In this document: in pieces, positions 1 to 12,631 of the stretch
Layout: each line of letters starts with the position of its first letter
Position numbering within the stretch: position 1 is the stretch's first letter
Assembly (NCBI GenBank): GCA_947625155.1
Contig: CANQNG010000019.1
Span: 1-39,847, forward strand
DNA length: 39,847 nt
Source: an uncultured Clostridia bacterium
Lineage (GTDB): Bacteria > Bacillota > Clostridia > Oscillospirales > Ruminococcaceae
Reading direction: 5' to 3'
Program-made: the position numbers and the translations under genes
The notes under the pieces: generated by a model
Told to the model about the DNA's origin: nothing
Databases searched by the model: none
Seen by the model: the letters and a program-made list of their open reading frames with translations, nothing else

Positions 1-56
1 GCTGTCTTTCTCAACCGAGCGTGGCAGAGGTTCATTGGGGTACTCTTCAAATCACC

Positions 57-1019
57 CTAAAATCTATTATACGAGGATATGAGTGCTTGGAAATAGATAC
101 AGGCAAATGCAATGATGATGACCGCCGAGGTGATCAGAGAATTGACGATCTGTACGCCCCACCCGAACATTTTTCCAAGGACAAAAGACTCGATCAGATA
201 GCCCAATTTTTTTAACGGATCATTTGTGCTAAGGCTGTTTGACCGGCAGTTGATCTTCCGCAGCCGTACAAGGCACAGATCCATTTCCTGAAATCGGTTT
301 TCATCGGCATATTGATCGTAAGCGGCGATCATGATCTGGTGCTGGTGTTTTAGTTCAACGACCTTTTGAGAGACTGTGCCGCCTCTGAGCGCCTTTTGTC
401 TGTTCTGCAATGTTTTCAGGAAACGCTTCAATCCCTCTTTATTATCGATGAAAAAGCGCTCCAGCACAGCGCCTTCCTTGATGTCCAGCGAGCGGATGGG
501 AGCGTTGATATGCAGGAACTCGATATGACTGCTGTGCAGTTCTAAGGTATCGACCGCAGCATCCAGGCACGTAAACTTTGTAACACAACTGTCATTGATG
601 ATAAGCACTGCATCCGCTTTGCTGCTGGATGCCAAGGATATGCTCTTCACCTCGGAACTTTCGATCCTGAGTTTTGGTATATGGCAATAGTCTAAAACAA
701 AGGACTGTACCGACGACGATCCGATCACGATCGTTATGTCGCTCTGAAAAAACCGGATAGCATTGATCTGACAGTTGATAAACCGGATCTCTTTCATGTG
801 TGCGGCATGTTCATTCTTAATGCTGATCGTATCAAAAATACAGTTTTCAAACACCAGTTTCTGTTCCGTGGTCTTGGAATAGGCGATCTCTACCTCACTG
901 GAAAATTTCAGGTTCTTTATCTTGCTTGGCAGGAGCTGGTCATGCCAATTATTTTTTTTAGACTGTTCTTCCTCACAGATCATTTCTGCTCCGGCAGTTA
1001 CATCAAATACCTCACGCAT
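57..1019 (-). CDS. Beta-helix-like protein with one C-terminal membrane segment
   Basis: Unnamed protein of about 320 residues and last gene of a three-gene minus-strand operon. Residues about 35-200 are a run of short alternating hydrophobic strands that reads like a pentapeptide-type or other right-handed beta-helix (inference). A charged helical stretch follows, and the protein ends with FGWGVQIVNSL and a hydrophobic segment of about 20 residues (one membrane span). From memory, similar Firmicutes proteins continue into a potassium-channel pore loop with a second helix, but here a TAG follows the first span and no pore motif is seen in the 56 bases left. It may therefore be a truncated channel or a simple tail anchor. 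GTG (1022) and ATG (1019) are adjacent; ATG is preferred because AGAGG lies 6 nt upstream. The gene is 9 nt after the kinase stop. Confidence 0.6.
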   Translation of the reverse strand: MREVFDVTAGAEMICEEEQSKKNNWHDQLLPSKIKNLKFSSEVEIAYSKTTEQKLVFENCIFDTISIKNEHAAHMKEIRFINCQINAIRFFQSDITIVIGSSSVQSFVLDYCHIPKLRIESSEVKSISLASSSKADAVLIINDSCVTKFTCLDAAVDTLELHSSHIEFLHINAPIRSLDIKEGAVLERFFIDNKEGLKRFLKTLQNRQKALRGGTVSQKVVELKHQHQIMIAAYDQYADENRFQEMDLCLVRLRKINCRSNSLSTNDPLKKLGYLIESFVLGKMFGWGVQIVNSLITSAVIIIAFACIYFQALISSYNRF

Positions 1020-1028
1020 CACACACCT

Positions 1029-1679
1029 CTAAAGGCTTCTCAGATAGCCCCAAAATTCGGCATATCCGTCATCAGCCTGCTTACCATCCTTATGTAACAG
1101 TTCCCTGATCCTGCGGCATGTTTCAGACAGATCCGTATTTCTGATCACAACGGTAAAGGGTCTTTGGTGTTCGTTCATCATTGCGATACTATCTGCAAAT
1201 TCCTGTTCCATAGCCGCCAGCCGTTTTTGTATTTCTGTCTCTGTCTTATCTCTTAGCACGATCCTGTCATGCAGGACATCTTTGGTCTCCCATAGCTGTA
1301 TGTGACAAACATCCACCTTCGATCCATACTTCTTTTCAAACGCCGGGAGGCTCTGACAGAAGGCGTAATAATTTTCTATTCTGCCAATGTGGATGATAGG
1401 GCACAGATCCTCCTGCAAATAACCAAGCAGCGTATCTTCCGCTATCCCATAGTATCTGCCGTACCTTCCATGATACTGCAAAAATTCACCAGCTCTGATC
1501 TTCCGTTCAAATTCCTCGACAGAAATATTAAAATACGTATCCTTGCACGTGTCGGACGAGCCTACAGATCTGTGTTTTTTGAACGGGATGAACCGCTTCT
1601 CCGAAGCGCACAGGGCTTCCGTAACGGTATCCTTACCGCTGGCAGGCATCCCGGAAAAAACAACTATCTTTTTATCCAT
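1029..1679 (-). CDS. Guanylate kinase-like P-loop protein
   Basis: About 216 residues. The N-terminus MDKKIVVFSGMPASGKDT is a Walker A P-loop (GMPASGKD). The segment after it resembles the GMP-binding layout of guanylate kinases: an R-S pair near residue 38, then a Y-F-x-I-S-x-E-E-F-E stretch and HGRYGRYYG, where guanylate kinases have an NxYGT-type motif. The core fold is therefore guanylate kinase-like, but the canonical nucleotide-binding residues are altered, so it is unlikely to be the housekeeping Gmk. Its start overlaps the stop of the upstream kinase by 16 bases, which implies translational coupling. Substrate unknown; another nucleotide or a signalling role is possible. Confidence 0.7.
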   Translation of the reverse strand: MDKKIVVFSGMPASGKDTVTEALCASEKRFIPFKKHRSVGSSDTCKDTYFNISVEEFERKIRAGEFLQYHGRYGRYYGIAEDTLLGYLQEDLCPIIHIGRIENYYAFCQSLPAFEKKYGSKVDVCHIQLWETKDVLHDRIVLRDKTETEIQKRLAAMEQEFADSIAMMNEHQRPFTVVIRNTDLSETCRRIRELLHKDGKQADDGYAEFWGYLRSL

Positions 1680-2269
1680 CGTTTTACCTCCACCAATGTA
1701 TCGGTCAGCTTGGCTTCACAGTCATTCACATAGATATAGGCATTGAGTTCCGGTGCCGGCTCGATCCCCTCGATGGAATCCGCATACTCATCCCAATGGC
1801 TGAGTTTGTACGCATCACGGGAAGCACCACGTTTCAGGATATTCTTCTTTTCGGTATTGATGTCATGCTTTATCCAGATAAATTTTACGTTGACATCATC
1901 GCCGATCCTTGCCTCTTCCTTGATCGCCAGCCACTTTGACCGATCCCGGATCTGTCCGATAAACGGGATCGTCAGAACAACGCTGGTGCCGTTTTCAAGT
2001 ATCTCTCTGCACACCTTGAATGTCACCCGATATTCGATCGGCAGGATCTCATTTTTGTACAGATCCGATTCCCTGTCGCCCTCAAAAGACCCGGAGCGTT
2101 TCAGGATATGATCTGTATAGTCTCTTGTCACCGTATCTTTATCAATATAGGCATAACCCAATTGTTTGGCAAGCTCTTTTCCAACTGTCGTTTTTCCCGA
2201 ACCGGCACATCCGGTAATAACGATCAGATACAGACTGTTTTCATTTGCCCTCCTATTAAAAAAACTCAT
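1664..2269 (-). CDS. AAA_33-type P-loop nucleotide kinase-like protein
   Basis: First gene of the operon, about 201 residues. VITGCAGSGKTTVGKELA is a clear Walker A motif, followed by YIDKDTVTRD, the layout of small-molecule or nucleoside kinases of the AAA_33 / zeta-toxin / shikimate-kinase-like class. The reading frame is open 15 codons further upstream, but MSFFNRR is taken as the start because GGAGGG sits 6 nt before it. The gene is AT-richer than the housekeeping genes in the window. Its stop overlaps the next kinase gene. Two P-loop kinases plus a membrane protein in one operon suggests a small signalling or stress module rather than central metabolism, but the substrate cannot be read from the sequence. 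Confidence 0.7.
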   Translation of the reverse strand: MSFFNRRANENSLYLIVITGCAGSGKTTVGKELAKQLGYAYIDKDTVTRDYTDHILKRSGSFEGDRESDLYKNEILPIEYRVTFKVCREILENGTSVVLTIPFIGQIRDRSKWLAIKEEARIGDDVNVKFIWIKHDINTEKKNILKRGASRDAYKLSHWDEYADSIEGIEPAPELNAYIYVNDCEAKLTDTLVEVKRWIKR

Positions 2270-2318
2270 CCTGATCCCTCCATTACAGATCCACATGACT
2301 GTTTTCAATGTCACAATT

Positions 2319-2347
2319 ATTATATCATGTTTTTATTGGCTTGTCAA
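2319..2347 (-). promoter_or_regulatory. Consensus sigma-A promoter of the kinase operon
   Basis: On the minus strand TTGACA (2347-2342) and TATAAT (2324-2319) are separated by exactly 17 bases, a perfect consensus. The predicted start lies about 40 nt upstream of the kinase start codon at 2269. Confidence 0.85.
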
Positions 2348-2408
2348 GAGGGCTTGCGGCTTTGCAGTATTCCCCATAACACTATTTTGACTGTCAGGAC
2401 ATAACAAA

Positions 2409-2435
2409 GCCCATGAAGCGTATCGCTTCATGGGC
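2409..2435 (-). terminator. Intrinsic terminator of the sigma-dockerin operon
   Basis: Perfect 12-bp arms (GCCCATGAAGCG and its complement) around a 3-nt loop. On the minus strand a T-rich stretch (TTTGTT) follows. It lies between the last dockerin gene (stop at 2482) and the promoter of the kinase operon. Confidence 0.8.
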
Positions 2436-2481
2436 ATGTGCTTTGGTCGGTCAGAGGAAAAGCCTACTGTCCAGTGTCGGT

Positions 2482-3699
2482 TCAGGCATTTATCGGGAAA
2501 CTGTCGATCAGCTCGATCACATAGCACAGGATGTTCAGGGCATCCGCCGGGGAAACAGTACCATCGCCGTCTACATCAGCGAGTGCATATTCCACGGAAT
2601 TCAATTCTTCAAGGGCAAGCAGACTTCTGTTGACCACGATCACATCAGAAAGACTGACTTTTTCATCATAATTCAAGTCGCCCGTCATCCGGTCAGTCAA
2701 ATGAACGGGGATACCGTCCTCTTGGAAAGACCTGATGTTGCTTGATAAGCTGCTTTTGCAGTATACCACTGCATCGGGGCAATTTTCAATATTGAGCGTG
2801 TTGATGCTCTGCTCCAGATAAATGGCTTTCAGAGACGGACAGTCACTGATCCCAAATGCGATAAACCCGTAGTCTGCATCTTCGGAAAATGTCACTGCCT
2901 CCAGATCAAGACAATTGCTGATAGAATTGGTTTGCTGAAAAAAGCCCCCGATCGAGGGAACATGGAATTCTTTCTGCTTTGTTCCATACAAACATACACG
3001 GGGGTTTGCCGGTCGTCCTGCCAGATCCAGCGTTTCCAACGCATTGCAGTCCCGGAACATACAATCGACCGCAGGTCGCTCCATCCCCTCGCCATCGGCA
3101 AAATACAAGGCTTTCAGGGAACTGCATCCTTCAAAAACATCATACCCGACCATCGGCACAGGTGCGCCCCCCAGCTCCTCAAGTGCCGTACAGCCATAAA
3201 AAGCCTGTGCGCCGACTTCTGTCAGGCTTTCCGGCAGCTTCACCGAGGTGATGCCGGTGCAGTCCTGAAATGCTCCGTCAAAGATCTTCACAGTACCCTC
3301 TGGAATTTCGACGCTCCCCTTTTTGCCTCTCGGACAAAAGAGCAGGGTGGCATTGCTTTGGGAATACAAAACGCCGTCATAGCTGATAAATTCAGAGGAA
3401 GCATCTTCGATCACGATCTCTTCGACCTTATTGTTGTCCCGAAGCATATCAGGGACTGAAACAATAGAGACTTGTCTGCCTTCGATCTCGCTATGGAATG
3501 TAACAGATACCGCATCTTCCTCTGTAAGTGCGACAGGTATCAGCTCGCTGCCATATTCATCTACATCATACACAACACCGTCATAGACAACGCTTTCCGC
3601 CTCTGCCTGTGTTGCCATTATATCATCCTCTGCATGTGCTTGCATCCCCAAAGGGGACACAAGCAGCAGGAAAGAAAGGAAAATAGCTGTCGATTTCAT
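2482..3699 (-). CDS. Secreted BspA-like leucine-rich-repeat protein with dockerin
   Basis: 405 residues. A signal peptide (1-23, ending QAHA) leads to LRR_5/BspA-type repeats from about residue 110: phrases such as EIPEGTVKIFDGAFQDC and LPESLTEVGAQAFYGC repeat the F-x-x-C pattern of this family. The last 65 residues are a dockerin with two EF-hand-like calcium loops, GDLNYDEKVSLSD and ADVDGDGTVSPAD, each followed by the hydrophobic helix that contacts cohesin. No catalytic domain is visible, so this is a cellulosome-attached or cohesin-anchored LRR protein, possibly for adhesion or binding (inference). It is the last gene of the operon that begins with the sigma factor, 18 nt after the previous dockerin gene, and is followed by a strong terminator. 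Confidence 0.88.
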   Translation of the reverse strand: MKSTAIFLSFLLLVSPLGMQAHAEDDIMATQAEAESVVYDGVVYDVDEYGSELIPVALTEEDAVSVTFHSEIEGRQVSIVSVPDMLRDNNKVEEIVIEDASSEFISYDGVLYSQSNATLLFCPRGKKGSVEIPEGTVKIFDGAFQDCTGITSVKLPESLTEVGAQAFYGCTALEELGGAPVPMVGYDVFEGCSSLKALYFADGEGMERPAVDCMFRDCNALETLDLAGRPANPRVCLYGTKQKEFHVPSIGGFFQQTNSISNCLDLEAVTFSEDADYGFIAFGISDCPSLKAIYLEQSINTLNIENCPDAVVYCKSSLSSNIRSFQEDGIPVHLTDRMTGDLNYDEKVSLSDVIVVNRSLLALEELNSVEYALADVDGDGTVSPADALNILCYVIELIDSFPINA

Positions 3700-3717
3700 A
3701 ATAGTATCCTCTTTTCC

Positions 3718-4542
3718 TTAAAATGTTCCTAAGTTCAAAAGCACATTATTAACTATTTGTACATCCTCCACAGTAACCTTGCCATCAAAATTCACATCAG
3801 CAGCCAGTTCAAATGCAGCAGCATCAAGTGAACCATCAGATACAACTGTCCCGTTTACATAAACGAGCATATTAAGTTCATCCATTGGTTCAAGTTTGCC
3901 GTTTCTGTCAACATCTCCAAGAGCATAGACACACTTATACAACGGTGTACCGTTTGATAGTCCCAGAATTGTAGATGGTTCTTCGTACCTACTTGTGTAT
4001 ATATGCAGATCCCATTCAGAAGGGATCAGCTCTTCTTCAATTTCACCCATTTCATAAGTGAACAGAACTTCAGCCTTGCTTACTGTCACATCAGGAATAC
4101 TTAGATCGACCTTAAAAGACTTAACATTGCTTTGAACATTAGTTACAGACACGGATTTGATCGAGGAATTGTCCTTGAATGCAGGACCAAGCCTAAAGCG
4201 GGATATGCTGCTGTAATTGTTTGTGGGAAGAATATTTGCATTAACATAAAACTCAGTCGATGCACTTCTAAGCCGTGCCCCCTTATTAGCCAAGACACCA
4301 AAGTAACGAGGAGTAGAGCAGTAGTCATCCTTAATGTATTGGTCATACGGCACAAAATCACTGGATGCCTCTTGTTGTACTGCCTTTATCTGTTCAGCCT
4401 GTTCCATAATTTGCGCAAGTTGAGCTTCTGCCTGCGCATTCTCTACAGATGCATCTGCGGCATTAACAGCCACTGTCCCAAACGTTCCCATCATCATGAT
4501 AGCAGCAGTCAGAGCTGCTGTGACCTTGTTGAACTTTTTCAT
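3718..4542 (-). CDS. Secreted dockerin protein of unknown function
   Basis: 274 residues. The N-terminal signal peptide (about 1-29, MKKFNKVTAALTAA...VNAA) is followed by a Q/E/A-rich helix (about 33-62). Residues about 95-195 are beta-strand-rich (KSVSVTNVQSNVKSFKVD), suggesting a beta-sandwich of unknown family, perhaps a cohesin- or CBM-like fold. A dockerin fills residues about 207-272, with calcium loops GDVDRNGKLEPMD and ADVNFDGKVTVED separated by an unusually long linker. Its sequence differs from both other dockerin types in the window. Preceded by AGGAGG 7 nt before ATG. More AT-rich than neighbouring cellulase genes. No enzyme motif recognised. Confidence 0.8.
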   Translation of the reverse strand: MKKFNKVTAALTAAIMMMGTFGTVAVNAADASVENAQAEAQLAQIMEQAEQIKAVQQEASSDFVPYDQYIKDDYCSTPRYFGVLANKGARLRSASTEFYVNANILPTNNYSSISRFRLGPAFKDNSSIKSVSVTNVQSNVKSFKVDLSIPDVTVSKAEVLFTYEMGEIEEELIPSEWDLHIYTSRYEEPSTILGLSNGTPLYKCVYALGDVDRNGKLEPMDELNMLVYVNGTVVSDGSLDAAAFELAADVNFDGKVTVEDVQIVNNVLLNLGTF

Positions 4543-4569
4543 AATATGACCTCCTGTTGAAAGATATGT

Positions 4570-4605
4570 TTAATTTGAACTTTTGGACACAATTACCTGA
4601 CCCAT
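4570..4605 (-). CDS. Possible 11-residue leader or peptide ORF
   Basis: In the gap between two secreted-protein genes a strong AGGAGG stands 8 nt before an ATG that opens an 11-codon frame, MGQVIVSKSSN, ending in TAA. A second AGGAGG follows for the dockerin gene 28 nt later. The spacing is ideal for translation, so either a very short peptide is made or this is the remnant of a lost gene start. No homology can be judged at this length. Confidence 0.35.
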   Translation of the reverse strand: MGQVIVSKSSN

Positions 4606-4633
4606 TGGAAACACCTCCTTTTCTGAGCTATGT

Positions 4634-5101
4634 TCAGGAAATTCTCAAAGTGTTCGACACACCCGGTTCGGTCTGTGTCTTTCCAAGAATACCGAGCAAG
4701 CCTTTTTCTTTGGCATAATACGTACAGGTCACCCTGTAATAATACCCAGACTGCACACTCTCCTTTCTGGCTTCAATACGGCAGGTTTTGTCGTTAGATG
4801 TCAGAATATCACCCAGCGTGCGGTATGTCGTCCAGTTCGACCCGTTAGTGCTCTGCTCGATCTTAAGCTCCTTAAAACCCAAGGATGCCATTTCATTATC
4901 ACAGCGCACCTGTCCATTGAGGCAAAGCTGACCATTAACGTTACTGATATTGATGTAGTAAGCGCCGATCAGACCCTCTGCCATGACCGAAGCATCTCCG
5001 TTCACAGTTTTCACATCCTGTGCAGCTGCACTGACAGGCATTGCCGACAGACCGACAAGCGCTACCACAAAAGCCAGCAACATTGCAAAATATTTACGCA
5101 T
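4634..5101 (-). CDS. Small secreted protein, DUF6147-like
   Basis: 155 residues with a signal peptide (1-26, MRKYFAMLLAFVVALVG...SAAA). The mature part has a two-layer beta pattern: it refers to paired strands such as KELKIEQSTNGSNWTTY and ends with SGYYYRVTCTYYAKEKG, which resembles the YYYRV-C-H/Y pattern I associate with the DUF6147 family of Clostridia (recalled, not searched). Cysteines are few and no catalytic motif is visible. It sits 21 nt after the anti-sigma-like gene with AAAGGAGG before the ATG, so it belongs to the sigma operon and may be its main extracellular product or the ligand-side partner of the sensor. Confidence 0.7.
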   Translation of the reverse strand: MRKYFAMLLAFVVALVGLSAMPVSAAAQDVKTVNGDASVMAEGLIGAYYINISNVNGQLCLNGQVRCDNEMASLGFKELKIEQSTNGSNWTTYRTLGDILTSNDKTCRIEARKESVQSGYYYRVTCTYYAKEKGLLGILGKTQTEPGVSNTLRIS

Positions 5102-5122
5102 GACTACACCTCCTTTCAGCTC

Positions 5123-5935
5123 TCATCTGATCGAATCTATCACTTTGTCACACTCACTATAATCCAAATATTCCATGTATATAACTGTTTCTAACAGGTC
5201 GTTCAGATAAACTAATGTACATTGTCCATCCTCTTTGGACACAATAGCCGGATTTCCGTTGATGTCTACTTCTGTCAGGTTGAAATCATCACATGGTACC
5301 CCTACGGTAGAACCATCCTTGTTGGCATACTTTGTATAGAAAAGGCATATTTTCCTATCACCTTTGTAAAACCAAAAACTCATTGACTCACACGAAGTTA
5401 GATCCGAATATTCCATATCTACCAGCACAAACCCTTCCGGGATATAGGTCGGCGCTTCCACCTCGATTCCGTGTTCTGCACAAGCTGTCCGGATACCATA
5501 GGGGTCGTCGGGGGACGTTTCCAGTTCCAAGGGATCGGGGGTGAAGTCCACGGAAAAGCCTTCATTTGAGATCTTCACAATGACAGAATAGAGCGACATA
5601 TCCAACGCCGACACCGTAAACGCATTCGCCGCAAGGAGCAAAACGGCTGCGATCCCCGCCGTGAGCATCAGCCGTATCCGCACAGACGGACGTGGTCTTC
5701 CCGCATGGGGGTGCTTTTTCTGCAAGTCAGCCCAGCCCTGTTCTGCCGCCTTTTCGAGCTGTTCCTCATCCGCCGCAAGGCAGGCGTAGGCATCCGTCAA
5801 TGCCTCGATCTTGTCATAGTTCCTGTCCTTTTCCGGTCTGGCAAGTTCCGCATCGAGCAATGTCTCCACTTCCCGGAGCGCCTCCTGCTCAAAACGATCA
5901 GAGATCAGATGTGTATAATTTTCTTTCATATCCAT
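5123..5935 (-). CDS. Membrane anti-sigma-like protein with DUF4367-type ectodomain
   Basis: 270 residues. Residues 1-85 are soluble, acidic and helical (cytoplasmic), 88-110 form a single membrane span (IRLMLTAGIAAVLLLAANAF), and the rest is extracellular. Residues about 160-268 match the layout of DUF4367 (APTYIPEGFVLVDMEYSD then alternating strands), a domain common on anti-sigma-like proteins of Firmicutes. There is no HxxxCxxC zinc motif, so it is not a ZAS-type anti-sigma factor. It lies 93 nt downstream of the ECF sigma gene, the usual arrangement for a cognate regulator. Probable role: hold the sigma factor until a signal, perhaps polysaccharide or envelope stress, reaches the ectodomain (inference). 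Two ATGs (5935, 5929) are possible starts. Confidence 0.75.
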   Translation of the reverse strand: MDMKENYTHLISDRFEQEALREVETLLDAELARPEKDRNYDKIEALTDAYACLAADEEQLEKAAEQGWADLQKKHPHAGRPRPSVRIRLMLTAGIAAVLLLAANAFTVSALDMSLYSVIVKISNEGFSVDFTPDPLELETSPDDPYGIRTACAEHGIEVEAPTYIPEGFVLVDMEYSDLTSCESMSFWFYKGDRKICLFYTKYANKDGSTVGVPCDDFNLTEVDINGNPAIVSKEDGQCTLVYLNDLLETVIYMEYLDYSECDKVIDSIR

Positions 5936-6028
5936 GCCCCCTCAAGGCTTTCTACTTAGTACTGTCGGAAATACCCCTGTTTCTTAACAGCAAAAAGTAA
6001 ACTTTGTATGCTTGACCAATTTCAACAC

Positions 6029-6490
6029 CTAAAATTTGTTGGTTTCATCTAAAGCCTTGCGCAGCTTTTTCTTGATCCTTGCCATTGTGACATAAAGCGA
6101 CTGTAACGTGATACCCTTTTCCTCTGCGATCTGCTGTTTGTCTGCCTTGCTGTAGTAGGCATCCACCAGTTCCCGTTCCTCTTGGCTCAAAACATCCAGC
6201 GCACTTTCCGGAATGTCCGGAAAATCACCCGTTCCCGGCTCTGCATCCGCCTCCACCGGGCAAGGATTTTTGCGCTGATAGGCTTTCACCACCCGGTCAG
6301 CCGAACGGTAAAGCCACGGACGAATGTCCTTTGTCATGTCAAGCGAATTGATCTTCCGGTAAAGCAGCAGGAACACATCCTGCGTGCAGTCCTGTGCAGC
6401 ATGCATATCACCATGCAGGCATTTGCAGCAGTATTTCAGGATATGCGGATATTGCTCTTGTATGATACTGTCCAGCACTGATCTCTTCAT
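6029..6490 (-). CDS. ECF-type RNA polymerase sigma factor
   Basis: 153 residues from the chosen start. Residues about 8-70 form sigma region 2 (YPHILKYCCKCLHGD, AAQDCTQDVFLLLYRK, then DIRPWLYRSADRV), a short acidic linker follows, and residues about 98-148 form region 4 (LSQEERELVDAYYSKAD, then QQIAEEKGITLQSLYVTMAR) with the helix-turn-helix that reads the -35 box. Sigma-70 region 2 motifs are somewhat degenerate but the length and order fit an ECF sigma factor. Start MKRSVLD is chosen because GGAGG lies 7 nt upstream; the frame is open further up. It heads an operon with an anti-sigma-like protein, a secreted protein and two dockerin proteins. Confidence 0.85.
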   Translation of the reverse strand: MKRSVLDSIIQEQYPHILKYCCKCLHGDMHAAQDCTQDVFLLLYRKINSLDMTKDIRPWLYRSADRVVKAYQRKNPCPVEADAEPGTGDFPDIPESALDVLSQEERELVDAYYSKADKQQIAEEKGITLQSLYVTMARIKKKLRKALDETNKF

Positions 6491-6549
6491 CGTCATCCCT
6501 CCGTGTATTTGCGCATTCCCGTTCCTGCCGTCCATTTCTTTCTGCTTTC

Positions 6550-6578
6550 ATCATAACACAGATCATGGAAAAAAGCAA
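6550..6578 (-). promoter_or_regulatory. Promoter of the ECF sigma operon
   Basis: TTGCTT (6578-6573) and TATGAT (6555-6550) on the minus strand with a 17-base spacer, about 60 nt before the sigma start codon. It is weaker than consensus. Confidence 0.65.
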
Positions 6579-6616
6579 GATGCCGATCGAATTTTTATCC
6601 GTGGAGATAGAAAAAG

Positions 6617-6644
6617 GGCTGCATGACCGCTTGGTCACGCAGCC
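6617..6644 (-). terminator. Terminator after mutY
   Basis: Stem GGCTGC-x-TGACC with its complement and a 4-nt loop. On the minus strand it is followed by CTTTTT. It ends transcription of the metS-like/GH9/mutY operon before the sigma operon promoter. Confidence 0.75.
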
Positions 6645-6678
6645 TGTTTCCCGGTCGGAAAAGCTGCTTTCTCTGCCC

Positions 6679-8313
6679 CTAGGAAAGGGCATCGGCGTTT
6701 CGGTCCAGTATACACCGGAACGCTGTCGGCAGAGAATACGCCCCTGCTAAAGCCGCTTCATCCGCCCAGACGAACGCCGCCGGCATGGCAGAACACTCTA
6801 CAAATACCCCCTGCATTTCCCACGTGATATGCGTAAAGACATGCTTTCTCCTCACGATCTTCCGCAGCTCCAAGGGCTTTACGCCCCAGTCTTTTACCAA
6901 GGCGACCGCCTGTTCTTCGGTGAGAAAGCCCGCCGCATGCGGCAGCTCCCACAGCCCGGCAAGCAAGCCCTTGGCAGGACGCTTGCGGAGGGCGGTCTTC
7001 CCGTCACAGCACAGCACGAACACCGTGAGCTGCTCTGTGCGGCGCTTGGTCTTGGTTTCCCGGACGGGCAAAAGGCGGGCGCTCCCGTTCTCCTGTGCCA
7101 GACAGATGCCCTTGAGCGGACACACCTCGCAGTGCGGCGCACCGTTCGGCAGACATACCGTTGCCCCGATCTCCATGAGCGCCTGTGTCAGCATGCCGCA
7201 GTCTGCCTGCGGGTAGATCTGCGCAAGTGCTCCGGCGGTCTCCTGCTTTACAGCGGGGTCAAGCACGTTCCGGAAGTCCTCCCGCAGCCTTGCCATGACC
7301 CGCAGCACGTTCCCGTCCACCGCCGGTGTAGGCAGTCCGAAGCAGATCGAGCAGACCGCCCCTGCCGTGTAGTCCCCGATCCCCGGAAGCGCCCGCACCG
7401 CCGCAAAAGTATGCGGAAATCTGCCGCCATGGTCCTTGACGATGCGCTGCGCCGCCTTCTGCATATGGCGCACCCGGTTATAGTAGCCAAGCCCCTCCCA
7501 GAGTTTCAGGAGCTGCTCTTCCGGGCAGTCCGCCAGCGCCTGCACATCCGGGAGAGCCGCCAAAAATCGGGCATAATAGCCCCTGACAGCTTCCACCCTC
7601 GTCTGCTGGAGCATGACCTCCGAGACCCACACATGGTAAGGATCCCTGTCCTGCCGCCAAGGCAAGTCCCGCTTGTGTGACGGATACCAGCGCAGCAGGG
7701 GAGAAAGCATTTCACCCGGTATCGCCTGCTTCCGGGCGTACAGCTCCCGCATCCGCCTGACGAGCTTCTGATAGATCGGCAGCATATGTGCTTCTGTACA
7801 GTATGCGGCGATCTCGGAGACTGGTAGCCAGCGAACGTCCCTGTTTTCGTCCGGCTTGTCTGCGATAGGCTGGTCTTTCGGGGCGACCAGCCCGTAAGTT
7901 ACATTATAGTGAATATGTGCCGGAACGGGCTTGCCGTGCTTTTCATGCGGCGGTACGGGGAGCATATCGATCGACAGGATACGCCTTGAAAAAAGGCAGA
8001 TGCGGGCGGCAGAAGTCTCCTCCTTTGCCTCCCGCAGTGCCACACCGGGCAAGTCCGGATCGCCGTCCGCATGCCCGCCTGTCCAGCCGACCGACCGGTA
8101 GATCAGGTGGTATGCCATGAGCGTTTCCGCCATGTCCGGCGACAGGATGAACACGGAACAAGTGATATGCCCTGCCCGGCAGTCCCGGTCAAGCAGATGC
8201 GCCCCCTGCTCTGCCAGAAGTGCAAGGAGCGTCTGCTTTGCGGTCTGTTCCTCCGGTGTGCAGGGACAGAAAGCCCCGATCTCCGCTGCCAGATGTGCCT
8301 GTATCTCCATCAT
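6679..8313 (-). CDS. mutY: Nudix-MutY fusion: A/G-specific adenine glycosylase
   Basis: 544 residues, about 190 longer than ordinary MutY. Residues about 50-185 are an N-terminal Nudix domain whose box keeps REAKEET (94-100) but has proline where the first glutamate is expected. Residues about 205-405 are the MutY glycosylase: WVSEVMLQQTRVEAV with catalytic Glu232, helix-hairpin-helix LPGIGDYTAGAV, catalytic Asp333 in AVDGNVLRV, and four [4Fe-4S] cysteines at 387, 395, 398 and 404 (first gap 7 residues). Residues about 425-535 are the MutT-like C-terminal domain that reads 8-oxoG. MutY removes adenine mispaired with 8-oxoguanine. The start codon overlaps the stop of the GH9 cellulase (ATGA), implying coupled translation from the same transcript. 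Confidence 0.93.
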   Translation of the reverse strand: MMEIQAHLAAEIGAFCPCTPEEQTAKQTLLALLAEQGAHLLDRDCRAGHITCSVFILSPDMAETLMAYHLIYRSVGWTGGHADGDPDLPGVALREAKEETSAARICLFSRRILSIDMLPVPPHEKHGKPVPAHIHYNVTYGLVAPKDQPIADKPDENRDVRWLPVSEIAAYCTEAHMLPIYQKLVRRMRELYARKQAIPGEMLSPLLRWYPSHKRDLPWRQDRDPYHVWVSEVMLQQTRVEAVRGYYARFLAALPDVQALADCPEEQLLKLWEGLGYYNRVRHMQKAAQRIVKDHGGRFPHTFAAVRALPGIGDYTAGAVCSICFGLPTPAVDGNVLRVMARLREDFRNVLDPAVKQETAGALAQIYPQADCGMLTQALMEIGATVCLPNGAPHCEVCPLKGICLAQENGSARLLPVRETKTKRRTEQLTVFVLCCDGKTALRKRPAKGLLAGLWELPHAAGFLTEEQAVALVKDWGVKPLELRKIVRRKHVFTHITWEMQGVFVECSAMPAAFVWADEAALAGAYSLPTAFRCILDRNADALS

Positions 8314-10616
8314 TGCACTGGCAGCTCTTCGATCAGCTCGATCACATACTGCAAAATATTCAGCGCATCAAATGGTGCGACACTACCATCCCTGTCCACA
8401 TCCGCATTTTTCATCTGCTGATCGTCCAGAACGTCAAGGTTCAGCAGATACAGATTCAAGGCGACCACATCATTCAGCTTGACCTTGCTGTCCAGCGTCA
8501 CGTCCCCGTAGACGATCTCTTCTTCCGTTCCCGCAGGCTGTGTCGCTGGTTCGGTCGAAGGCGCTGTGGGCTTTTCGGTCGGTCCGGGGCTGACAGGGTC
8601 TTTGCCGGGCACAGCATTGCCGTCCGCAGACGTGCCGTCCGGCTCGATGCCATAGTACAGCTCCCCGTCCACATAGACCGGGATATACGGTGTCACGATG
8701 CCCTTTACTGTGCCTGCCTCATCCGCTTCGCCTGCCTTGCCGAGGATGTCCTGATTCGAGTAATCATTTTCGGCATCCCAGCCAGTTCCGTAATTCGGGT
8801 ACACCAGCGCCAGCAGGATCTCGCACTGCTGCATGCCCTCGGAGACTGGCAGCACAGCCCTGCCGTCCGGCAGTGTCACTTCTACATAGTAGATATTGCC
8901 CTGATAGTGCTGTATGCCCGAGATCTCCGCCGATGCGACACCCTTGGAAGCATACATGGCAGACTGGTCACGATCACAGCGAACGACCACATCTTCCGGC
9001 TTCAGACCGGCATCGAGGATCTCGCTCAGATCCATGTAATACCGGAACGAAAGGTCATCCTGCACCCTTGCCGGCCATGCGGAATGGTTGGTGATCTTGA
9101 AGCTGACAGTAGCCCCCTGTGCGGAAATGCCCTTGTCCAATGCCTCCACATAGAATTCCGGACCGTCATGCTGTTCCACAGGTGGGAAAGCCGGGTCGGA
9201 CTTGCCGCCGTAAATACTCAGCATCCGGCACAGTGCTGCCGTAAAGCCAGCATTGTAGTCGGTCGCTACCTCGTTATTGATGTAATTCTGCCGGTCGTCC
9301 TCATAGCTGCCGTTTTCCGTAGGACCGCCGACCAGCGCACCGTAGAGGATATGGCGATTCGTGTCGGGAATGGCAAGATCATTCTTCCACGAAGCGTGCG
9401 CCGTCCTGTGGTGGGGGTTCTGGGGTGCATTTTCCCCGTAGCCGACCACGTAGCTCTGGTCATCGGGGTTGACACCGAGGGCATAGTTCACCTGCTCCTC
9501 ACAGAATTCCCGGTATTTGTCCGTATTTTCATCCGCAAACAGCGTATCACACGCCACGCCCACGATGAACGAAGCCGTTTCCGCATAGCGCAGACAGCCC
9601 CATGTCGTAAGCCAGCGCAGTCCGCCGTCCAGTTTTGCCACAGAATCCGTCCAGTAGTCCATGTGCTTCTTCACACGGGCAATGTAAGTCGGGTCGCCTG
9701 TATTGATCGCATACAGCAGCATACCGCCCTGCATGGCATCATCCCAGCAGTGCCCCCAGCTATATTTCAGCTCATCACTGCCCAGTTCCTTGTCCAGATG
9801 TGAAATATATCCGGTCGCCTTGTCTAAATACGCCTTGTCGCCTGTCGCAATGTAAAGCCAGTTCGCAGCGTAAAACAATTCGTCATAAAAATGACTGGAA
9901 CGGTAGAAACCGGATGCGTCGCTGTCATTGTAGACCGTATCGCTTGGCGAAGCGGAGGCGATGCTGAAAATATTTTCTGCGTGTGCAAGATAGTCCTCCC
10001 GCTTGCTTTCGTCGATCCTGCCGTCCAGAGCGCAGTACCCTGCCGCTAAAGCCGCTGCCATATCCCCGAACACAGCCGAACAGCCCTCGGAGGATCCCAG
10101 TGTTTCCCGTGCCGCCTCGTAGGATGTGCCGGCATCTTCCATGCCGTACTGATACAGTTCCACAGGTCCCCACCATGTGTGGTCGATCGTGCCGTTGCCG
10201 ACCTGATACACCACGGAATCTCCCCTGTCGCAGGCAGCAAGATAATCCATGACGTATTCGAGGTTATTCACGTAATTGTCCAGTTCCCCGGACTGTTCCA
10301 CGCCCTCCGGGTACTGATACAGCCCCCAAGCCAGCATCGCAGCCGAATAGGACATGGGGAGATTGAATTTCACATGGTCGCCGGCATCGTACCAGCCGCC
10401 GTCCACTTCGTCAATGGTCGTGGCATCTCTGCGCCATTCGACCCGGTTCCAGTCCGGCAAATGCCCTGCCTGCTGACATTCGTAGAAGTACAGCGACATC
10501 TGCAAGGCGCTTGCATAGTCCGGCTCCTCTGCCGCCGTGACCGGAACAGCAAAGTTCCCCACACCGGCAAGCAGCATGGCAGCCGCAGTGGCTGCGCCTG
10601 TGATCCTTTTTTTCAT
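8310..10616 (-). CDS. Cellulosomal GH9 endoglucanase (GH9-CBM3c-dockerin)
   Basis: 768 residues. Signal peptide 1-29; GH9 catalytic domain about 34-470 with the aspartate pair D77/D80 in WYDAGDHVKF, the substrate-site HHRTAH motif at 402-407 and the catalytic acid E449 in NNEVATDYN. Residues about 485-625 form a family 3c carbohydrate-binding module (GPEFYVEALDKGI...LVYPNYGTGWDAENDY), the module that gives GH9 enzymes processivity. A P/T/S-rich linker (about 665-698) leads to a dockerin (about 703-765) with loops GDVTLDSKVKLND and ADVDRDGSVAPFD, close to the LRR protein dockerin. It cuts internal beta-1,4 bonds of cellulose outside the cell. AAAGGAG is 6 nt before ATG. It sits only 14 nt after the tRNA synthetase gene and overlaps mutY. 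Confidence 0.96.
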   Translation of the reverse strand: MKKRITGAATAAAMLLAGVGNFAVPVTAAEEPDYASALQMSLYFYECQQAGHLPDWNRVEWRRDATTIDEVDGGWYDAGDHVKFNLPMSYSAAMLAWGLYQYPEGVEQSGELDNYVNNLEYVMDYLAACDRGDSVVYQVGNGTIDHTWWGPVELYQYGMEDAGTSYEAARETLGSSEGCSAVFGDMAAALAAGYCALDGRIDESKREDYLAHAENIFSIASASPSDTVYNDSDASGFYRSSHFYDELFYAANWLYIATGDKAYLDKATGYISHLDKELGSDELKYSWGHCWDDAMQGGMLLYAINTGDPTYIARVKKHMDYWTDSVAKLDGGLRWLTTWGCLRYAETASFIVGVACDTLFADENTDKYREFCEEQVNYALGVNPDDQSYVVGYGENAPQNPHHRTAHASWKNDLAIPDTNRHILYGALVGGPTENGSYEDDRQNYINNEVATDYNAGFTAALCRMLSIYGGKSDPAFPPVEQHDGPEFYVEALDKGISAQGATVSFKITNHSAWPARVQDDLSFRYYMDLSEILDAGLKPEDVVVRCDRDQSAMYASKGVASAEISGIQHYQGNIYYVEVTLPDGRAVLPVSEGMQQCEILLALVYPNYGTGWDAENDYSNQDILGKAGEADEAGTVKGIVTPYIPVYVDGELYYGIEPDGTSADGNAVPGKDPVSPGPTEKPTAPSTEPATQPAGTEEEIVYGDVTLDSKVKLNDVVALNLYLLNLDVLDDQQMKNADVDRDGSVAPFDALNILQYVIELIEELPVQ

Positions 10617-10630
10617 GAACAGCTCCTTTC

Positions 10631-12631
10631 TCAGTCCGTGTTGAACTGACTTTCGTGGCGGGTGAAGAAATCCGTCCTCGGCGGGAGGAATTTCAGCTTG
10701 TGACCCGTTCCCGTGAAATAATTGACAGGCTCAAAGATCGTGTCCCATGACCAGATACGTTCATCCGTTCCCAGATATTCCCGCAGTTTCTCCGTCCCGA
10801 ACGGTGCCATCGGGTGCAGCAGCACCCCGGCAATGCGGATGATATAGAACAGGTTTGCCAGCACCTGTGCGGCTTCCTCCGGGGGAGTGTCGTCTTTCAG
10901 CGCCCTTGCCATGTACTTGCTGCCATTACGGATATAGCTGTCCAGTACATAGGTACACTGGTGGAACGCAAATTTTGCCATATGCCGTTCGTAGTCCAGT
11001 ACTGCTTTTTTCGCATCGGCAAGGAACGTTTCTTCGGGCGCATTGTCCGGCATCACGCCGTCAAACAGCTTCTGTGTCGTGTAAAATGCCGTGCGTATCA
11101 TGCGGTTGTAGACATTTGAGAGGAGCAGACCGTCCTTGATCACGGGATCCTGTACTTTCGGGTCGGCATCGGGGTCGAACACTTTCGGCATGAAGCTGAC
11201 CGACTGCTGCCCCAGTCCCAGTCCCAGCCAGTGCATCCGGAGCTGTTCCGGCGTATAATAGGCAAGCAGTTCGTCCGCCATGGGCGGCTTGACCGCACCG
11301 GAACTGGAGGCTTTCTTGTTCAGGAACAGGATATGGTGGTTGGCAATGATAGTCGGCATCTGAAGCTCCCCCTCCGGCGGTTCGGAGGTCTTTTCTTCTG
11401 CCGCCTGCTGTGCCATCCACATAGACGGCTCGGCTATGCCGTAGAAGTAGATATTATCCTGCCCGATGAACTGGTACACGCCGGATCTTTTGCTGCACCA
11501 GTAGTCTTTCCACTCGTCCCGGCTCCTGCCCTGTGACTCAAGATATGCCTGTGTGAAAGAGATCGGCGCCCAGAGGGATTCGGGCCACACCCACACGGTC
11601 AGCCCGGTCTCGCCGTCCAGTTCCGGCGCAGGTACGCCCCATTCGATATTGCCCGTCAGGCGGAACGGCACGAGCGTCTTGCCCGTCCGGAAACGAACAC
11701 CATGCTCCGTGAGGATGTGTGTCGCCGTATCGCAGTCGGGGAGATCGGAAAACTCGATCGTAAAGGACGGCTTCTTCGGTTCTTCAAGATACTTATGCGC
11801 CGGGAGCTTGTCTTTCAGGGCAAGATACGTTTCCTCGTACTCACGCTTCACATAAATGACCGGCGGCTTGAGGAATTCGGAGATCGTTTTCCACACGACC
11901 GGGCGGACAGTCTTGTCTTTCTGAAGGCGGGCAGTCCATTCCTGCATCAGCTTTTCATGATCCCGCAGGCGGAAATACCAGTTCGTGACCGGCTTCATGG
12001 ATGGCTTTTCTCCGGTGAGGGTGCTGACGGGGTCGATGAGGTTTTCGGGCATATACTGATGCCCCAGATCGCATTCATCGGCATATGCCTTTTCAGACTG
12101 GCAGCCCTGCACGGGGCACTTGCCAACGACCTGTCTGCCGTTGAGGAACATTCCGGCTTTTTCATCATAAAACTGCATGGTCGTGATCTTATCGAGCTGT
12201 CCCTTTTCGTAGAGGGAACGCAGGAACCAGTCTGTCACCTCGGCATGGATCTCCTTCGTCCTGCCCAGTCCGGATGCACCGAACAAGTCCAAGGAAATGC
12301 CATAATCGTGCAGTGTCTGCTCCTGCTTTTCGTGGTTGGCATTGACGAATTCTTCCAGTGTGCCGGAAAATTCGCCCTTTTCGACTTTCTGCCGCCAGCC
12401 CTCGGCAATGGGCGAACCGTAGCAGTCCGTACCGCAGACGAAAATGACATGCTCCTTCCCGATGCGGTCACGCAGGAAACGGGCAAAGGTATCGGCAAAT
12501 ACGAACATGCCGCCGACATGCCCGAAATGCAGTTCCTTGTTGCCGTAGGGCATACCGCCGGTAATGACGGCACGCTCCGGAAACACGGGGCGGGGTATCT
12601 CATAGGGTTTCGAGGGTCTCTGTTTATCCAT
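10631..12631 (-). CDS. Divergent methionyl-tRNA synthetase (class I)
   Basis: 666 residues from MDKQRPSK. Class I core: ITGGMPYGNKELHFGHVGG contains the HIGH-type motif HFGH (35-38), with VCGTDCYGSPI downstream as in MetRS. The zinc knuckle is altered (C172-x4-C177-x9-C187-x3-H191 instead of two CxxC pairs), and the KMSKS loop reads KKASSS (439-444). TNWYFRL, GNIEWGVPAP and the anticodon-binding helices after about residue 490 support MetRS; no C-terminal tRNA-binding (EMAP) domain is present. It may be the sole MetRS or a paralog. The frame opens with a GTG at 12682, but that falls at the predicted transcription start, so the ATG at 12631 is preferred. No T-box leader fits the short 5' UTR. 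Confidence 0.85.
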   Translation of the reverse strand: MDKQRPSKPYEIPRPVFPERAVITGGMPYGNKELHFGHVGGMFVFADTFARFLRDRIGKEHVIFVCGTDCYGSPIAEGWRQKVEKGEFSGTLEEFVNANHEKQEQTLHDYGISLDLFGASGLGRTKEIHAEVTDWFLRSLYEKGQLDKITTMQFYDEKAGMFLNGRQVVGKCPVQGCQSEKAYADECDLGHQYMPENLIDPVSTLTGEKPSMKPVTNWYFRLRDHEKLMQEWTARLQKDKTVRPVVWKTISEFLKPPVIYVKREYEETYLALKDKLPAHKYLEEPKKPSFTIEFSDLPDCDTATHILTEHGVRFRTGKTLVPFRLTGNIEWGVPAPELDGETGLTVWVWPESLWAPISFTQAYLESQGRSRDEWKDYWCSKRSGVYQFIGQDNIYFYGIAEPSMWMAQQAAEEKTSEPPEGELQMPTIIANHHILFLNKKASSSGAVKPPMADELLAYYTPEQLRMHWLGLGLGQQSVSFMPKVFDPDADPKVQDPVIKDGLLLSNVYNRMIRTAFYTTQKLFDGVMPDNAPEETFLADAKKAVLDYERHMAKFAFHQCTYVLDSYIRNGSKYMARALKDDTPPEEAAQVLANLFYIIRIAGVLLHPMAPFGTEKLREYLGTDERIWSWDTIFEPVNYFTGTGHKLKFLPPRTDFFTRHESQFNTD

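Follow-up and report, generated by a model that had tools for sequence, protein, structure and literature searches.

The subject of this study is a five-gene group on the minus strand of a 39,847-nucleotide stretch of DNA, hereafter the window, from an uncultured Clostridia bacterium of the family Ruminococcaceae (assembly GCA_947625155.1, contig CANQNG010000019.1, positions 1 to 39,847). This window corresponds to contig C19 of a genome of 1.96 Mb in 38 contigs, with a completeness of 86.5% and 63 dockerin matches at E ≤ 0.001. From 6535 down to 2482, the group encodes a sigma factor of the extracytoplasmic function (ECF) type (SIGMA), a membrane protein presumed to be its anti-sigma factor (ANTI), a small secreted protein (P3) and two type I dockerin proteins (P0004 and P0005). 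The intergenic gaps are, in gene order, 93, 21, 91 and 18 nucleotides, as an initial annotation had it (five genes in one direction, gaps of 18-93 nucleotides), and the single terminator that it proposed corresponds to a terminator-like hairpin closing the group. The features are the following.

6617-6644, minus strand: terminator-like hairpin between SIGMA and the genes upstream (hairpin scan)
6550-6578, minus strand: housekeeping-type promoter TTGCTT-17-TATGAT with an extended -10, before SIGMA (8 of 12 consensus matches; read from the sequence)
6029-6490, minus strand: SIGMA, ECF-type sigma factor of about 153 residues from an ATG at 6490, with the open frame reaching 6535 (Pfam, NCBIfam, alignment, relatives)
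5948-6024, minus strand: conserved promoter-like element in the gap between SIGMA and ANTI (motif search, DNA profile, held-out detection)
5123-5935, minus strand: ANTI, single-pass membrane protein, presumed anti-sigma factor with a DUF4367 ectodomain (Pfam, alignments, AlphaFold2 model and fold searches)
4634-5101, minus strand: P3, small secreted protein, predicted beta-sandwich (alignments, AlphaFold2)
3718-4542, minus strand: P0004, secreted dockerin protein (Dockerin_1, 26.3 bits, residues 208-269; genome match C19:3736-3921)
2482-3699, minus strand: P0005, secreted protein with BspA-type leucine-rich repeats (LRR) and a C-terminal dockerin (LRR_5, 52.8 bits; Dockerin_1, 32.7 bits)
2409-2435, minus strand: terminator-like hairpin of 12 pairs at the end of the group (hairpin scan)

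SIGMA matches Pfam Sigma70_r2 at 33.9 bits (cut-off 24) and the NCBIfam sigma70-ECF family TIGR02937 at 60.9 bits (cut-off 42.9); its region 4 is weak (Sigma70_r4_2, 16.9 bits, under the cut-off of 25.7), and its relatives by sequence in the PDB include the ECF factors SigW, RpoE and SigL. ECF (group 4) factors are defined by sigma regions 2 and 4 within about 150-200 residues and by the absence of region 3, and on its predicted domains SIGMA is one of them. The start at 6490 (MKRSV...) is more likely than the one at 6535, because GGAGGG lies directly upstream of it and the alignment of relatives favours it. The SigI profile (TIGR02895) gave nothing at C19:6029-6535 at E ≤ 0.001, and its three matches in this genome, at C10 and C4, are weak (at most 30.9 bits, against a cut-off of 185), in line with the annotated ECF-type, non-SigI factor.

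ANTI has one strongly hydrophobic segment (residues about 89-107, read from the sequence) and a DUF4367 domain at residues 162-268 (26.6 bits, cut-off 22.1), the sole family that Pfam recognises in it, which agrees with its description as a membrane anti-sigma-like protein with a DUF4367 ectodomain. The full-length alignment of 26 relatives has a mean column identity of 34%, and Pfam recognises DUF4367 in 23 of them. The RsgI_N domain (PF12791) was found in none of 38 genomes of the genus at E ≤ 0.001, in a search that detected the Bacillus subtilis control. In Foldseek, the AlphaFold2 model of the ectodomain best matches RseB and MucB, which are partner proteins of ECF anti-sigma factors; by Z, however, PsbP (9.5) and LpqN (9.3) tie with them, so the likeness may be one of common fold only. 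Variants of this protein also occur. In two genomes, the proteins at L059:1055-2815 (the same as L099) and L061:3-1361 (the same as L102) combine an anti-sigma-like N-terminus with an LRR-like ectodomain that resembles P0005 (26-27% identity by BLAST) and in which Pfam names no family in the one protein scanned; they would represent ectodomain swapping in ANTI. In L211, a single frame (8271-9152) matches SIGMA at 39 bits and ANTI at 167 bits, apparently a sigma fragment fused to an anti-sigma-like protein.

The contigs of 84,980 species were scanned with two peptide patterns, by which distant members may be missed, and 60 loci were obtained. Our counts use 45 of them (L087-L131), which are titled as Ruminococcus, Oscillospiraceae or Clostridia metagenome-assembled genomes (L131 as Lachnospiraceae), many from rumen, rectum or faeces, with R. 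flavefaciens XPD3002 (L130) as the sole isolate; the other 15 (L132-L146) are weaker, come mostly from other phyla and were excluded. Many genomes are common to this set and to the 38 of the genus. Dockerins were called with a local profile seeded with the window's dockerins (E < 1e-4), a run was defined as co-directional genes with gaps of at most 300 nucleotides, and a locus was considered informative when its run is not ended by the contig end before any dockerin.

The gene set is recurrent and not a local accident. The order SIGMA-ANTI(-P3)-dockerin is found in Ruminococcus and close relatives, including R. flavefaciens XPD3002, and of the 41 loci that no contig end interrupts at this point, 39 have an ANTI-like gene behind SIGMA. 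A dockerin gene lies in the downstream run of 20 of the 45 loci, that is, in 20 of the 34 informative ones, against 7/209 for other anchor genes of the same loci; with gaps of up to 450 nucleotides the counts are 23/33 and 10/188. The corresponding Fisher p-values (8e-15 and 5e-16) are overstated, because the loci are closely related and the anchors share runs, so that the events are not independent. Dockerins make up 30 of the 112 genes in the runs and 19 of the 324 outside them. In other genera of the family, six of eight SIGMA-clade runs contain a dockerin (L208 by weak scores only, and L206 probably the same contig as L113), against one (L217) of 12 runs that belong to ECF sigma genes with lower scores, a comparison in which the dockerin content of the 12 genomes is uncontrolled. 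Within the genus, SIGMA relatives (E < 1e-12) are present in 17 of the 38 genomes, the present one included, as fragments or stop-carrying copies in G028, G029 and G030, and full-length ANTI relatives in nine; the nearest relative among them, G036 (locus L087), shares 87-88% identity in SIGMA and 81% in ANTI. The link that had been proposed between an ECF sigma/anti-sigma-like pair and dockerin genes is thus supported by a recurrent order in Ruminococcus relatives, and it extends to some other genera of the family.

This genome contains 16 genes with sigma region 2, three of which (on C19, C22 and C2) are the first gene of a short run that includes a dockerin gene. The run on C22 (L077, 476-3266) is a different series of ECF sigma factor, membrane protein and dockerin, with the same order in L070, L071 and L217. 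On the minus strand of C2 (L147, 4680-11099), a sigma gene, a membrane protein and a lipoprotein are followed, after a 235-nucleotide gap, by a protein of 1059 residues with a weak dockerin match.

The last three genes of the group agree with the annotated small secreted protein and two dockerin proteins. Both Dockerin_1 scores exceed the Pfam cut-off of 22.9, and N-terminal hydrophobic signals can be read by eye in P0004 and P0005, a combination of dockerin domain and secretion signal by which both would be classed with cellulosomal type I dockerin proteins. We assembled 35 dockerin-bearing proteins from the runs, including the window's two and leaving out truncated and some weak ones; Pfam (E ≤ 0.001) found Dockerin_1 in 29, LRR_5 in eight, subtilase domains in two, a trypsin-like domain in one and GH44 in one. 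By these counts, the recognised cargo is mostly non-enzymatic or proteolytic rather than composed of polysaccharide hydrolases. No Pfam family scores above its cut-off in the window's P3, for which AlphaFold2 predicts a beta-sandwich with a confidence (pLDDT) above 90 over most of residues 41-155. The P3 profile matches 14 proteins across 46 loci, some of them in dockerin-free runs, and P3 is missing from many dockerin-bearing runs. Four of 15 aligned members (L105, L109, L112 and L114) end in a Thr-rich linker, an SPxTG motif, a hydrophobic stretch and a basic tail, and the NCBIfam model Rumino_NPXTG, of the ruminococcal NPXTG anchor, matches two of these four under its cut-off; in some species P3 is probably anchored to the cell wall. 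Between P3 and the first dockerin gene lies an open frame of 11 codons that has a strong ribosome-binding site (4604-4569, minus strand), a candidate leftover or leader peptide.

A conserved element was found in the regions upstream of SIGMA and in the gaps between SIGMA and ANTI. The motif was first noticed by eye and then recovered by expectation maximisation, run separately on two chosen sets of 14 and 18 sequences. With a width of 18, a block ending in TACAAA was returned by both sets, and with a width of 24 the downstream block came from the first set. The log-likelihoods, 102-155, were about twice the 45-71 of the shuffles, which kept base composition only and used fewer seeds. The alignment of 22 sequences describes an element of about 75 bp with the rough consensus TTTGTGnAnTCATACAAAnTTT-N11-TGTCnAAAAA-N5-TTTTTnnGACATTAATATATAGA. 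It showed no RNA fold, and Rfam gave no match in window positions 1-11000. A held-out DNA profile, made from the rows of 11 copies upstream of SIGMA in the joint alignment, detected the copy of the window, at 6022-5948, with E = 3e-8 in 562,711 bases. All 28 of its matches at E ≤ 0.01 are next to SIGMA or ANTI. Two of the 28, in L099 and L102, are on the opposite strand ahead of a divergently oriented gene, which is a dockerin gene in L099 and the truncated counterpart of that gene in L102. With the full model the element is present at 38 of 46 SIGMA loci (E ≤ 0.01), of which 22 are the training loci, so that 16 of the 24 others are positive. As regards the annotated single promoter, a promoter-like site does precede the group at 6578 (under the 9/12 limit of our general promoter scan), but the description is incomplete because the conserved element at 5948-6024 also sits inside the group, and the group is probably not transcribed simply as one unit from a single promoter.

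The position of the element varies among loci: it lies before SIGMA, and then most of the SIGMA and ANTI genes overlap or touch; in the gap between these two genes, as in the window; or between ANTI and the P3 or dockerin gene (L107, L111, L113 and L118, with second copies in L126 and L128). In loci with the element upstream of SIGMA, no housekeeping promoter in that region scores above 9/12 (10 or more in 0/18 loci); where it stands downstream, the housekeeping promoter before SIGMA scores 10-12 in 15/20 loci. This is the pattern expected if an alternative sigma factor reads the element and the housekeeping factor provides basal SIGMA in the second arrangement. L087 has the same promoter type in the same place as the window, also at 8/12. 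Across the 38 genus genomes, 16 of the 17 best matches to the element are at SIGMA/ANTI loci, training copies included. A strong copy (E < 1e-6) is present in 14 of the 17 genomes with SIGMA and in none of the 21 without it, where the best matches are 4.1e-6 (G017) and 1.0e-5 (G003); a Fisher test was run on these counts. We also inspected 18 further places chosen from the genus-wide listing, four of which directly precede a dockerin gene: one of 281 residues in L190, two-dockerin operons in L189 and L191, and one of 1052 residues in L200, the copies in L189, L191 and L200 being partial.

Taken together, we consider it likely from these sequence comparisons that the group is an ECF/anti-sigma module specific to this lineage, with ANTI, P3 and the dockerin genes under the control of its target promoter. 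Basal SIGMA would be made from the housekeeping-type promoter, and the N-terminal, cytoplasmic part of ANTI presumably keeps it inactive; ANTI itself is predicted to span the membrane once with its DUF4367 domain outside. A surface signal sensed by this domain, perhaps also by secreted P3, would release SIGMA, which would then direct RNA polymerase to the element at 5948-6024, taken as its target promoter because of its position and its co-occurrence with SIGMA, so that ANTI, P3 and the two dockerin genes are transcribed. ANTI, as part of its own target operon, would give negative feedback, and the secreted dockerin proteins would attach to cohesins of the cellulosome or the cell surface.

Several observations weigh against this reading. 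Kinship among the loci makes the counts non-independent; eight of the 46 SIGMA loci have no element at E ≤ 0.01; the SIGMA promoter scores 7-8 of 12 in the window (8/12) and in four other loci of the downstream class; and the closest relative, L087, has no P3. In this genome there is no second strong copy of the element (the next best, E = 3.1e-4, lies before groES), so that a wider regulon is not visible there, and 14 of the 18 further places are not directly before a dockerin gene (groES, an ABC transporter and unrelated genes are among them). The genome of L190 lacks SIGMA, an observation at odds with a strict link. The element itself holds palindrome-like parts, and -35 and -10 boxes cannot be assigned in it. 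Finally, 14 of the 34 informative loci (for example L089, L091, L093 and L104) have no dockerin in the run. Such loci would fit an ordinary envelope-stress sigma/anti-sigma module behind which dockerin genes, being frequent, merely hitch-hike: dockerins occur in all 38 genus genomes (at least 39-126 matches each at E ≤ 1e-4), another genus has a dockerin-free set of ECF sigma gene, ANTI and P3 (L212, one of the 12 lower-scoring ECF runs), and the runs on C22 and C2 are different ECF runs with a dockerin gene. The same explanation leaves the enrichment of dockerins behind SIGMA over other anchors, over genes outside the runs and over other ECF runs of the family to chance placement, as well as the extra element copies before dockerin genes elsewhere, and we regard it as unlikely.

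Slightly less probable still is that the element is the operator of an unlinked transcription factor, with SIGMA as one of its targets. Because of its palindrome-like parts, which in several loci give the upstream block the form TTTGT-N8-ACAAA, another DNA-binding protein could read it, and such a protein might also account for the weaker or partial matches before non-dockerin genes and for the copy in L190. Where the element lies upstream of SIGMA, however, the lack of a housekeeping promoter (0/18) means that something in or near it must act as promoter, and the SIGMA-less genomes hold no copy at E < 1e-6. A third reading, in which the actual effector is P3, as a secreted immunity or toxin-like protein with the dockerins as partners in bacterial competition, is very improbable: P3 relatives in dockerin-free runs, the proteases in the cargo and the type VI secretion system immunity proteins among the PDB matches of the ANTI fold would suit it, but those immunity proteins tie with unrelated proteins, P3 is absent from many dockerin-bearing runs, and the window's P3 is a predicted beta-sandwich with no recognised family.

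The ECF/anti-sigma module that we favour can be compared with the SigI/RsgI pairs of Clostridium (Acetivibrio) thermocellum and Pseudobacteroides, in which a sigma gene also adjoins a membrane anti-sigma gene, the extracellular domains vary and cellulosome genes are linked. By this analogy the logic would be alike and the proteins different: SIGMA is ECF-type, ANTI has no RsgI_N match, its ectodomain is DUF4367 and not a carbohydrate-binding module, and the dockerin genes are in the same run as the sigma pair. According to the available portions of the sources, SigI factors have no sigma4 domain, unlike ECF factors (PMC6056542), and RsgI-type control is assigned to Acetivibrio and Pseudobacteroides (PMC11557425). 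The contrast with SigI/RsgI drawn in the initial annotation holds within this genome, where no full-length SigI-like protein was seen, but is less sharp in the genus, since seven of the 38 genomes (G017, G018, G019, G020, G021, G022 and G026) encode full-length SigI-like proteins of 150-171 bits, under the TIGR02895 cut-off and without an RsgI_N match. E. coli RseB is a separate protein; compared with the sigmaE-RseA-RseB system of E. coli and AlgU-MucA-MucB of Pseudomonas, the modelled RseB-like domain would here be fused to the presumed anti-sigma factor. In SigV-RsiV of Firmicutes, the outer domain of a single-pass anti-sigma factor senses a ligand. The pairing of an ECF sigma factor with a single-pass membrane protein of anti-sigma type is common to both, while ANTI has DUF4367 as its only Pfam domain and the linked genes encode dockerin proteins.

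In R. flavefaciens FD-1, head-to-tail dockerin genes have been proposed as operons, and LRR and other non-enzymatic dockerin proteins have been described (PMC2930009). Tandem dockerin genes and LRR-dockerins are thus shared with our loci; the word "sigma" is absent from PMC2930009 and PMC4081043, and in PMC2721979 it appears twice and "anti-sigma" never. Nothing on a SIGMA/ANTI-dockerin system is contained in the accessible text of PMC12484212, PMC3573020 and PMC5742341, and our literature searches, confined to open-licence PMC papers, brought up no description of an ECF sigma/anti-sigma-dockerin gene set.

Beyond the hairpin at 6644-6617, the genes upstream of SIGMA are mutY and a GH9-CBM3-dockerin gene. 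The MutY-type glycosylase (6679-8313, minus strand) has an N-terminal NUDIX domain in addition to its C-terminal NUDIX_4. On the other side of the group (57-2347, minus strand), a promoter with 12/12 consensus matches at 2347-2319 precedes three genes, two of them of P-loop kinase-like type and one for a membrane protein that weakly matches the anti-phage HalA family.

The regulation of ruminococcal cellulosome components in the rumen was described in 2014 as "yet to be understood" (PMC4081043, in its available part), and RsgI_N, the partner in the known cellulosome switch, was found in none of the 38 genus genomes. Tentatively, and with more doubt than for the module itself, Ruminococcus might have its own ECF sigma class, with a promoter class of its own, whose specific task is to remodel that part of the cellulosome which is mostly non-enzymatic, namely the LRR and protease dockerin proteins, with sensing through P3 and an anti-sigma factor with a fused RseB-like domain; if the displayed outputs feed back into sensing, the cell would monitor its own surface machine. 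The mostly non-enzymatic dockerin proteins are possibly a co-regulated class, and the combination of a conserved sigma factor, its membrane partner and a defined promoter-like element makes the regulation of the ruminococcal cellulosome directly testable.

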